A DNA stretch of 35,301 bases. It comes from Bacteroidota bacterium (GTDB lineage Bacteria > Bacteroidota > Bacteroidia > Bacteroidales > JAIFNL01). The stretch is from positions 2,741-38,041 of the forward strand of contig JAIFNL010000308.1 in the NCBI GenBank assembly GCA_020047755.1, given 5' to 3'. The position numbers and the translations under genes were made by a program. Under the pieces are notes generated by a model. The model was not told the DNA's origin and did not search any database. It worked only from the letters and a program-made list of their open reading frames with translations. This document shows positions 15,581 to 19,481 of this stretch, one piece after another. Every line of letters begins with the position of its first letter. Position 1 is the first letter of the stretch.

Positions 15581-16132
15581 CTAATCTACAAATTCCAACT
15601 TGTGTGCGCCTACGTCTTCTAAGTCTTTCAAGTGGTCGTGAAGGCGTTTCATGGGTTTAGTTACAATCACACGCCCCGAACGAATAAATTCGTGCACATC
15701 GAAAGGTGCCAATTTTTCGAGAAACTCTTGAGTTTCAGTTTGTCTCCCCGTTTTTTCGATTACAATATATTCAGGCTCTATTGCCAAAATACGGCTGTTG
15801 CTGTTTCTAACCAATTCTTCTACCGTATTATTTTGAGCTAACGCCTTGGTAGAAACCTTATAAAGAGCTACTTCTTGGCTCAAAATCATATCTTCATCAT
15901 AAAGAAATACTTTCAAAACCTCTACCTGTTTTTCTATTTGTTTCTGAATTTTTTCTACTTTGTCGCGCGTTTCCTCTATCACAATCACAAAGGTATGAAT
16001 GCCTTTATGCCTTGAAGGTGAAGTAGTTAAACTTTCTATATTTACCTTGCGGCGAGTAAATATTATTGAAATTCTGTTCAGCAAACCAATATGGTTTTCT
16101 GAATATATAAGCAATGTGAATTTTCTTTTCAT
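15581..16132 (-). CDS. ilvN: Acetolactate synthase small (regulatory) subunit
   Basis: IlvN is the regulatory partner of acetolactate synthase, the first shared enzyme of branched-chain amino acid synthesis, and in characterised enzymes confers valine feedback inhibition. The 183-residue protein has an N-terminal ACT domain (about 5-80) with IYSENHIGLLNRISIIFTRR, followed by the C-terminal domain typical of the longer IlvN/IlvH forms (about 85-165). It lies 97 bp downstream of ilvB on the same strand and should be controlled by the same leader attenuator. Confidence 0.93.
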   Translation of the reverse strand: MKRKFTLLIYSENHIGLLNRISIIFTRRKVNIESLTTSPSRHKGIHTFVIVIEETRDKVEKIQKQIEKQVEVLKVFLYDEDMILSQEVALYKVSTKALAQNNTVEELVRNSNSRILAIEPEYIVIEKTGRQTETQEFLEKLAPFDVHEFIRSGRVIVTKPMKRLHDHLKDLEDVGAHKLEFVD

Positions 16133-16229: not shown

Positions 16230-17942
16230 TTAAACTTCTTCGAGAATCATTTCCGAAACCGCTTTTCCGGCAGGAACCATCGGAAAAACGTGGTTTATTT
16301 TTTCTACTACCACTTCCAAAAAATACGGTCCATCGTGGGCAATCATCTCATCTACAGCCGATTTCAAGTCTTCTCGTCGCTCCACTTTGCGCGAAGGCAA
16401 ATTGTAGGCAGCAGCAATTTGTTGAAAGTCAGGATTGTCCAATTCGCCAAAAAAATCACGGCTATTGTAGTACACATCATGCAATTGGCGAATCATGCCT
16501 AAAAAATTGTTGTTCAAAACCACAATTTTAACCGGAATTTTGTAATGCCTAATTGTTCCAAGTTCTTGCATGGTCATTTGAAAACCGCCATCGCCAATAA
16601 ATGCTACAACTTGGCGATTTTTTGCAGCCCATTTTGCGCCCATTGCCGCTGGCAAAGCAAACCCCATTGTGCCCAAACCGCCCGAAGTTACTTGGCTATT
16701 GGTGTCGGCATAATCGTAATAGCGAGCCGATGCCATTTGGTGCTGACCTACATCGCTCACAGTTATGGCTTTACCTTGCGTAGCTTCCGAAACGGCACGC
16801 ACTACTTCGGGCATACTTAACTGACCTTGAGTTCGTTCCAAATTTGGCTTGTGAATTTTTTCTAATTCGATGGCGTGATAATTTTTAGCAATTTCGAGCC
16901 ACTTTGTGTGCGAATTTGCCCTAATGCGCTTATTTATAACACGCAAAGCAACTTTTGCATCGGAATTAATGGCTACGGCAGCCATTACATTTTTATTAAT
17001 TTCAGATATATCTATCTCAATATGAATCACTTTAGCTTGTTTGGCATATTTGCTCAACGCACTTGTTACGCGGTCGTCGAAGCGCATTCCTACAGCAATG
17101 AGCACGTCGCACTCGTTGGTCATCATGTTGGGCGCATAATTTCCATGCAAGCCCACCATGCCTTGCGCAAGCCTGTGTTTAGAGGGAAAAGCCGAGATTC
17201 CCATCAAAGTCCACGCCACCGGAATGTCAGCTTTTTCGGCTAATTGCAAAATATCTTGCTGTGCATTGGAAATCAAAACGCCTTGCCCAATGAGTAACAG
17301 TGGCTTTTTTGCACTATCAATTAAATGTACCGCTTCGTCTATCGAATCCATATCTGGCTTAGGATAAGGGTGATAGCTTCTTATTCGCTCACATTTGCTG
17401 TACTCAAATTCGGTAAGTATTTCATTTTGAGCATCTTTTGTTATATCCACCAAAACCGGTCCCGGACGACCCGAATTTGCAATATAAAAAGCTTTTGCAA
17501 AAGTTTCGGCAATTTCGGAAGCTTTTGTAACTTGAAAATTCCATTTTGTAATTGGCATCGAAATTCCCACTACATCGGTTTCTTGAAAAGCATCGAAACC
17601 CAAATAGGGCGACTCTACCTGTCCCGTAATGCACACAATTGGCGTGCTATCTATCATAGCATCAGCTATTCCGGTAATTAAATTTGTAGCTCCCGGACCC
17701 GAAGTAACCATGCACACACCTGTTTTTTTTGTGGCACGCGCGTAGCCTTGTGCAGCATGCACAGCTCCTTGTTCGTGCCGAACCAAAATGTGTTTAATTT
17801 CCTTTTTATAATGATACCACGCATCGTAAATGGGTAAATTTGCGCCACCCGGATAGCCAAATACAGTATCAATTCCTTCGGCTATCAAAGCTCTAAAAAT
17901 AGCTTCTGCTCCGCGAATATTTTGTAATGAAATTTCTGCCAT
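16230..17942 (-). CDS. ilvB: Acetolactate synthase large (catalytic) subunit
   Basis: This thiamine-diphosphate enzyme condenses two pyruvates (or pyruvate with 2-ketobutyrate) in isoleucine, leucine and valine synthesis. The 570-residue length is standard. Near the N-terminus it has [13 protein letters not shown] and [16 protein letters not shown] with the catalytic Glu; the FAD-associated middle domain spans about 190-340; the C-terminal domain has [17 protein letters not shown] and the ThDP/Mg motif [14 protein letters not shown] then [10 protein letters not shown]. The other pathway genes (ilvC, ilvD, leuA) are not adjacent. Expression is predicted to be controlled by a Leu/Ile/Val leader-peptide attenuator at 18005-18133. 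Confidence 0.96.
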
Positions 17943-18004
17943 AATTTAAAAAAATTTAGTTCTAATTATTAATTAATATCTGCTTTTCAATTATTTACAA
18001 AATT

Positions 18005-18041
18005 AAAAAGCACCATTCCGTTTGAAAGGAATGGTGCTTTT
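18005..18041 (-). terminator. Attenuator terminator in the ilvBN leader
   Basis: On the minus strand the RNA reads AAAAGCACCATTCC, loop TTTCAAAC, GGAATGGTGCTTTT, then TAATTTTG. This is a perfect 14-bp stem followed by U residues, 63 bp upstream of the ilvB start and 26 bp after the leader-peptide stop. A terminator placed before the gene it precedes points to attenuation. The 5' arm contains CATTCC, which can instead pair with GGAATG at the end of the leader ORF (18069-18074), with four extra U:A pairs beyond a small internal loop. Confidence 0.8.
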
Positions 18042-18067
18042 CAGCCTACACTTTTATACATGCAAAA

Positions 18068-18133
18068 TCATTCCTTCATTAAAATTTTAAGAAAGAGGAC
18101 CAGATAAATATAAAAGCTATGCAATTTTTTCAT
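18068..18133 (-). CDS. ilvBN leader peptide (21 codons)
   Basis: The short ORF encodes MKKLHSFYIYLVLFLKILMKE. Eight of 21 residues are Leu, Ile or Val, and seven of them fall in residues 9-18 as IYLVLFLKIL. It begins about 27 nt after the predicted transcription start and ends just before the terminator at 18005-18041. The stop region overlaps the GGAATG segment that can pair with the terminator 5' arm. This is the classical arrangement for ribosome-mediated attenuation: stalling at Leu/Val/Ile codons would free GGAATG and prevent the terminator, whereas translation to the stop would mask it. The call is by pattern; translation has not been shown. Confidence 0.75.
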   Translation of the reverse strand: MKKLHSFYIYLVLFLKILMKE

Positions 18134-18167
18134 TTTATATACTGAAAATGTAACTAATTTTACTTCT

Positions 18168-18195
18168 CAAAAATAAAGATAGTTTTTGGTTCAAA
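18168..18195 (-). promoter_or_regulatory. Promoter of the ilvBN leader transcript
   Basis: On the minus strand TTTG (18195-18192) and TATTTTTG (18175-18168) fit -33 TTTG and -7 TAnnTTTG with a 16-bp spacer, slightly shorter than usual. The start would be near 18160, leaving about 27 nt before the leader ATG at 18133. Confidence 0.55.
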
Positions 18196-18674: not shown

Positions 18675-19481
18675 ATGAAAAATATAGTAGAGCAGTATTG
18701 CGAATTGCCGAAAAGTGTAAGAAAACCACTATGGAGCTTTTGGCACAAATTGATATTAAAACTAGATAAAGAACAAAAAACTGTATTTTTGAACTATGGA
18801 TATGCTAGCCCAAATGGGGAATTTAAAGATTTAGTAATTTCACCCGAAGAAGAAGCCGACCGCTACTCGATACAACTATATCACAGAGTTACAAAAAATC
18901 ATGACTTTGCAAACACGCACGTGCTTGAAGTAGGAAGCGGAAGAGGCGGCGGAGCGTCTTTTCTTACAAGAACCTTTAAACCAGCCTCTTATACAGCAAT
19001 TGATTTGGCTCAAAAAACAATAGATTTTTGCAACGAACACCATAAAGTTCCCAATTTGAAATTTTTGAAAGGCGATGCCGAAAATTTAACTTTTGAAAAT
19101 GAGAAATTTGATGCAGTAGTAAACGTAGAATCAGCACGTTGCTACCCAAATATTGATGTGTTTTTCAAAGAAGTAATGCGCGTTTTGAAACCAGGAGGCA
19201 AATTTTTATATGCCGATATGATTAAAAAAGAAGAACTTCCAAAAATTGAAGGATTACTTGCAAAAACAGGTTTTAAAACGATTGACAAAACAGATATTCG
19301 CGAGAATGTAGTTTTGGCTCTAAAAAAAGATTCCGAAGCTAGAAAAAAAGACATCGATGGTAGAGTTCCAAAATTAATCAGAACTTCTTTTTATGAATTT
19401 GCTGGTGTAGAAGGAAGCGACCGATATAAATCATTTGAAAGCAGCGAGATGCAATATTGGAGCTTTACACTTCAAAAATAA
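18675..19481 (+). CDS. Class I SAM-dependent methyltransferase
   Basis: This 268-residue protein has a standard SAM-binding domain: motif I HVLEVGSGRGGGASFLTR (about 76-93), an acidic strand end in YTAIDLAQKTIDFC, KFLKGDAENLTF (motif III region) and MRVLKPGGKFLYADM. Sequence style and length recall phthiotriol/phenolphthiotriol-dimycocerosate-type and sterol/MPBQ-type lipid methyltransferases, with a C-terminal YWSFTLQK. A small hydrophobic acceptor is therefore plausible, but the substrate cannot be stated. It appears to be a single-gene unit ending in a strong terminator. Confidence 0.8.
   Translation: MKNIVEQYCELPKSVRKPLWSFWHKLILKLDKEQKTVFLNYGYASPNGEFKDLVISPEEEADRYSIQLYHRVTKNHDFANTHVLEVGSGRGGGASFLTRTFKPASYTAIDLAQKTIDFCNEHHKVPNLKFLKGDAENLTFENEKFDAVVNVESARCYPNIDVFFKEVMRVLKPGGKFLYADMIKKEELPKIEGLLAKTGFKTIDKTDIRENVVLALKKDSEARKKDIDGRVPKLIRTSFYEFAGVEGSDRYKSFESSEMQYWSFTLQK

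Follow-up and report, generated by a model that had tools for sequence, protein, structure and literature searches.

Introduction

In Escherichia coli, the ilvBN operon responds to leucine and valine, and ilvGMEDA to isoleucine, leucine and valine. Attenuators were reportedly surveyed bacteria-wide by Lopatovskaya et al. (2010), and Bacteroidota cases may be listed there. By 2010, leader peptide systems were unproven beyond Proteobacteria and Actinobacteria, to which Firmicutes were then added (PMC2965389). Attenuation is known or has been proposed for the leaders of Corynebacterium ilvBNC, of ilvB-OMG and of Leptospira ilvB (PMC10272879), and the C. glutamicum leader peptide is reported, in work cited in the same paper, to be made without a ribosome binding site. 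Within Bacteroidota, 5´ UTR sORFs of B. thetaiotaomicron resemble such leaders (PMC7366714), and a 2021 study of F. psychrophilum speaks, in its relevant passage, of "strong clues" of attenuation upstream of amino-acid operons (PMC9723704). Here we describe the leader of a stand-alone ilvBN operon from Bacteroidales which, judged from its sequence, is very probably a ribosome-mediated transcription attenuator controlling that operon.

The ilvBN locus and its leader

The DNA analysed (hereafter the window) is a stretch of 35,301 nt from a Bacteroidota bacterium (Bacteroidales; JAIFNL01), positions 2,741-38,041 of the forward strand of contig JAIFNL010000308.1, assembly GCA_020047755.1. Its minus strand carries ilvB (16230-17942), the putatively regulated gene, coding for the acetolactate synthase large subunit (TIGR00118, 688.5 bits, cut-off 538.35), and ilvN (15581-16132), coding for the small subunit (TIGR00119, 96.4 bits, cut-off 56.9). 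Along the same strand TTTG, TATTTTTG, a leader ORF, a terminator and ilvB follow each other in this order, with a methyltransferase gene (18675-19481, plus strand) upstream of them all. Since the latter gene is divergent, the terminator at 18043-18004 does not belong to the 3´ end of some neighbouring gene.

A candidate promoter of the Bacteroidota -33/-7 type (18168-18195, minus strand) was recognized by sequence match. It consists of TTTG (18195-18192) and, 16 nt further on, TATTTTTG (18175-18168), the latter box lying 42 nt before the leader ATG. Another -7-like box, TAATTTTG (18005-17998), matches TAnnTTTG within the terminator tail and might provide a second start independent of the attenuator. 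We did not adopt such a start after the terminator; the box lacks an obvious -33 partner and is not seen at that place in three related loci (L007, L008, L078). Elsewhere in the window, a long A/T-rich hairpin of 20 pairs (21489-21444) downstream of guaA is probably the guaA terminator.

The leader ORF (18068-18133, minus strand) runs from ATG at 18133 to TGA at 18068 and encodes MKKLHSFYIYLVLFLKILMKE in 21 codons. Eight of the 21 residues are Leu, Ile or Val (5 L, 2 I, 1 V), seven of them within a single stretch of ten codons. The preliminary description of this DNA had ribosomes stalling at Leu, Val and Ile codons; not all eight, however, are likely sensors. The probable control codons are the consecutive CTG GTC CTC (Leu-Val-Leu, 18095-18103, minus strand), which are shared with the closest relative and are rare in the genome, each making up a small share of the codons for its amino acid in 13 window genes (4.5%, 3.2% and 7.3%, respectively). 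The device most likely senses a shortage of leucine and valine.

The intrinsic terminator (strands 3 and 4; 18004-18043, minus strand) was recognized by terminator scan, folding and covariation, and is followed by a U-rich tail. Its core is formed by AAAAGCACCATTCC (18041-18028), the loop TTTCAAAC and GGAATGGTGCTTTT (18019-18006), with 14 perfect pairs. The scanner extended the stem to 16 pairs (18043-18004), with ATTTTGTAAA next to it, and of all terminator-like sites listed for the surrounding 12 kb this one came first. The 5´ strand of the antiterminator, AAGGAATG (strand 2; 18069-18076, minus strand), makes eight contiguous pairs with CATTCCTT, which sits in the 5´ arm and loop of the terminator. 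Its GGAATG part (18074-18069) overlaps the leader stop codon (GAAGGAATGA), and the preceding AA extends the pairing to eight. The terminator and antiterminator pairings are predicted to be mutually exclusive.

Most of these elements had been listed before. The two promoter-like boxes, the 21-codon ORF with eight Leu/Ile/Val residues (its start being 18133), the perfect 14-bp terminator with U tract and the GGAATG/CATTCC alternative pairing were all found where the preliminary description had placed them, the terminator stem being extendable to 18043-18004.

Proposed mechanism

We propose that transcription would start at about 18161 and that a ribosome would start the leader ORF, where no Shine-Dalgarno site is evident. 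When charged Leu- and Val-tRNA are plentiful, the ribosome would reach the stop codon and cover AAGGAATG; with this strand covered, the terminator would form and RNA polymerase would halt short of ilvB. If either Leu-tRNA or Val-tRNA runs low, the ribosome would stall at CTG-GTC-CTC, about 20-30 nt upstream of AAGGAATG, and the free strand would pair with nascent CATTCCTT before the 3´ arm of the terminator exists, resulting in read-through into ilvBN.

Predicted folds of the nascent RNA, with a ribosome footprint assumed to reach 12 nt beyond the A-site codon, agree with this scheme. With the ribosome modelled as stalled at CTG, GTC or CTC, the antiterminator is free and the nascent fold amounts to -15.3 kcal/mol. 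A ribosome that has reached the stop codon instead covers the antiterminator strand; -3.6 kcal/mol is left and the terminator then forms. At equilibrium the terminator wins once its 3´ arm is made. Like known attenuators, the switch must therefore be kinetic.

The preliminary description also considered all four elements of classical attenuation to be present. This goes too far: the boxes are a candidate promoter, translation of the ORF and the amino-acid response are predicted, and the 1:2 hairpin is weakly supported in the window. A tentative protector pairing of GCTTTTATAT (18117-18108) with TGTATAAAAG (18060-18051), spanning 18051-18117 on the minus strand, is part of the minimum-energy fold, and 1:2-type pairings beat shuffled sequences (p<=0.05) in 34 of 101 related units. 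Classical three-hairpin attenuation, in which the 1:2 protector would be as important as masking at the stop codon, is thus a possible sub-variant, compatible with our explanation; we nevertheless regard it as rather doubtful, because shuffled sequences equal the 1:2 pairing in 15 of 100 cases in the window (not significant) and in 88 of 100 in one relative (L009), and because masking at the stop codon alone suffices for the switch in our models.

Chance controls on the window

The leader might instead be a constitutive partial terminator or a short non-coding RNA, its ORF being nothing but a chance frame. Leu/Ile/Phe-rich frames do arise readily in AT-rich DNA, and although the leader RNA folds with z = -5.68 (none of 200 shuffles being as stable), this signal comes mostly from the terminator alone. 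The combination of a terminator with an ORF so rich in Leu, Ile and Val is a different matter. It did not appear in any of 2000 first-order Markov sequences modelled on the 732-nt intergenic region, where only 24 terminators reached the threshold, none of them with an ORF having 7 L/I/V in 10 codons. On both strands of the 35-kb window, the leader described here is the sole match to this combination.

Conservation in close relatives

Four close relatives of the locus were compared with the window. Their IlvB proteins are 95% (L007), 76% (L008 and L078) and 67% (L009) identical to that of the window, most IlvB of Bacteroidota being 50-62% identical. L007 shares one contig with a further locus, L004. 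All four relatives have a short Leu/Val/Ile-rich leader ORF of 20-25 codons at the same place as in the window, encoding MNHFFHFFTLLVLFVCYLVKE, MNRVINSSVLVNLFLLTLFKGMV, MILSKIIHSSVLLYVFLLTLFKGMV and MDSKYLHITLLLIVFIVFTT, and in all four the ORF ends beside a strand complementary to the 5´ arm of the terminator. The five leader peptides diverge at most positions. CTG GTC CTC is identical in L007; in the other three, GTC occurs again together with CTC or CTA. The comparison of relatives suggested in the preliminary description thus found all three features kept: the rich ORF, the terminator and the pairing that competes with it. That an ORF rich in Leu, Val and Ile and ending at the antiterminator strand persists while its sequence mostly changes speaks against a chance frame. 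In L007, tandem TTTTCAAA-like units, absent from the window, lie between the terminator (ending at 258) and ilvB (441).

When the five complete leaders were simply aligned with MAFFT, the result had to be discarded: it misplaced the antiterminator strand, which may precede, overlap or follow the stop codon, depending on the relative. We therefore restarted the alignment from the antiterminator strand. Such an alignment is biased towards pairing, and the figures to trust are those of the controls by shuffling and sliding. In the terminator, changes on both sides occurred at 4 of 14 pairs, a number equalled by none of 500 shuffles. In the antiterminator, 94% of the alignment cells were paired, against 39-65% in the slid alignment. 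Covariation of the antiterminator taken alone amounted to one both-sided change (T-A to C-G in L009), equalled by 86 of 500 shuffles; five sequences are too few for significance here, and the antiterminator claim rests on the test of 100 units described below, which uses no alignment. In L009, strand 2 changes from AAGGAATG to AGGGAACG, strand 3 from CATTCC to CGTTTC and strand 4 from GGAATG to GAAGCG, so that at one position T:A:T became C:G:C in strands 2, 3 and 4 together.

Leader units across Bacteroidales and Bacteroidota

In 80 Bacteroidales genomes we searched the DNA ahead of ilvB over a distance of up to 3 kb, the second ilvB copy of the window genome being one of the 80. A unit was defined as a terminator together with an ATG ORF (10-45 codons, at least 7 L/I/V in 10 codons) lying within 60 nt before it. 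Such units were present upstream of ilvB or ilvD in 57 of the 80 cases; the reverse strand gave 2 in 80, and five dinucleotide-shuffled sets gave none. This again argues against a chance frame, and with leader peptides such as MKHLLNISILVNIVLVVVVVVISMK and MKLLNTVLVVVVVVVLKNIE there is little room for doubt. The Leu-Val-Leu leader of the window is less extreme than those typical for Bacteroidales. Further leader loci were found in records named Cytophagales, Cyclobacteriaceae, Saprospiraceae, Flavobacteriaceae and Balneolaceae.

One hundred non-redundant units were collected, with leaders mostly of 17-28 residues; related genomes are counted separately in the statistics on these units, which overstates their independence. 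When the best helix was compared with shuffled spacers, the antiterminator beat shuffles (p<=0.05) in 80 of the 100 units, with its 5´ strand concentrated around the leader stop codon. Of the 100 leader ORFs, 71 have TAnnTTTG in the 120 nt upstream (74 sites, 9.1 expected), with a peak 20-40 nt before the ATG.

Synonymous codon bias is strong in these 100 Bacteroidota leaders, favouring Val GTC, Leu CTA or CTC and Ile ATT. Relative to the long gene at each of these loci, over-use was seen for GTC (0.45 against 0.13), CTA (0.19 against 0.05) and ATT (0.74 against 0.46). In E. coli, leaders use the codons that respond most sensitively to starvation (PMC1183508).

Several ilv operons are preceded by tandem units, each with leader ORF and terminator (L016, L034, L035, L057, L081, L120, L121, L125, L133, L165), the terminators lying about 130-250 nt apart. 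Such double attenuators could make the response sharper.

Leaders of other operons

The window genome has a second ilvB (58% identical), which is preceded by an Ile-rich leader, MNFNIHILSIIIINVIIILLMR, and a terminator (L142:501-629, G000:C24). The gene upstream of this ilvB is, by its position and operon homology, ilvD. The difference between the two leaders suggests that the two acetolactate synthases of this genome answer to different amino acids.

Leaders of matching composition were found upstream of operons for other amino acids. At hisG loci of the window's relatives, leaders with His runs and terminators occurred in 18 of 23 cases, and none in shuffles; the window genome itself has MIFQLHTIRHHHNLLFEVGG there (L213, G000:C34). 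The hisG loci concerned, most of them with such leaders, are L213, L195-L212 and L215, and L197 has two leaders in tandem. At trpE-family loci, paralogues included, Trp leaders were present in 15 of 30 cases, again with none in shuffles, the window genome having MTNLSLNINWWRFLENKFVKGTKRM (L234, G000:C300). Among the trpE loci L220-L236, the Trp leaders have WW or WWW and the terminator loops often contain TCACG; L230 has a tandem pair.

Nothing speaks more strongly for attenuators than the way in which the amino acid of the leader tracks the operon. A partial terminator with a chance frame does not account for his and trp leader peptides that match their pathway, and all things considered we find it improbable. 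Still less probable is that the choice between terminator and antiterminator is set by an RNA switch that binds a metabolite or a protein, be it a riboswitch, a T-box or some unknown aptamer: such a switch would show the same two structures, and certain ilvB leaders elsewhere are indeed ppGpp riboswitches (PMC10272879), but Rfam covariance models at gathering score found no leader or ilvB RNA family in the window and 15 related loci (only a tRNA matched), the T-box model found none in 31 genomes (the control being positive in 5 known genomes), and the interval between promoter and terminator is mostly ORF, its alignment being devoid of a conserved aptamer-like core. Ribosome-mediated attenuation of ilvBN through a leader peptide, as put forward in the preliminary description, is supported both by conservation in relatives and by the same arrangement across the order. 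The putative device of the window is evidently one of a widespread set of ribosome-mediated attenuators.

Discussion

Taken further, the data lead to a more general proposal, on which we are evenly divided. Bacteroidota, with no T-boxes in the genomes searched and no Shine-Dalgarno initiation, would use leader-peptide attenuators of ilv, his and trp operons throughout the phylum. These would be compact, with the antiterminator strand at the leader stop codon and arrival of the ribosome there as the main repressing event. Tandem attenuators and a split between paralogues (Leu/Val for stand-alone ilvBN, an Ile-rich leader for ilvD-ilvB) would belong to the same picture.

If this is true, the compact design demands close coupling of transcription and translation in Bacteroidota. 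Attenuation needs a ribosome close behind RNA polymerase, here on mRNA without Shine-Dalgarno sites, and the conserved leaders are therefore natural reporters of coupling. The question is directly testable in Bacteroides or Flavobacterium. Moreover, the leaders predict which amino acid is sensed by each operon, and they represent short coding genes overlooked by gene finders.

The mechanism itself is classical and belongs to textbooks; in Bacteroidota, a major phylum both in the gut and in the environment, it is scarcely documented. The preliminary description regarded it as little described in this phylum, which is correct as to the scarcity, but a precedent exists in the "strong clues" from Flavobacterium, as worded in the passage concerned (PMC9723704). 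The putative leader-peptide attenuators of F. psychrophilum come from the same phylum as the window. In that passage, the report is one sentence within a transcriptome survey, without structural model, covariation or phylum-wide survey (PMC9723704).

The motifs of Corynebacterium ilvBNC (ilvB-II), ilvB-OMG and Leptospira ilvB share with the window a uORF rich in branched-chain amino acids upstream of ilvB, and ilvB-II shares also the intrinsic terminator upstream of ilvB (PMC10272879). They differ in belonging to other phyla, and the window matches no Rfam family.

The likeness to E. coli ivbL-ilvBN (and ilvL-ilvGMEDA) is close: a short leader ORF with codons for branched-chain amino acids, a terminator and an alternative antiterminator precede ilvBN in both. 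The E. coli split is mirrored as well, the leader of the stand-alone ilvBN of the window being Leu-Val-Leu and that of ilvD-ilvB Ile-rich. Unlike in E. coli, the leader peptide of the window is a different one (compared by eye) with a control run of three codons, the antiterminator strand and the leader stop codon overlap in the window, and its protector hairpin is tentative. It is this stop-codon-centred design, proposed for the whole phylum, that might count as a variant of the classical mechanism.
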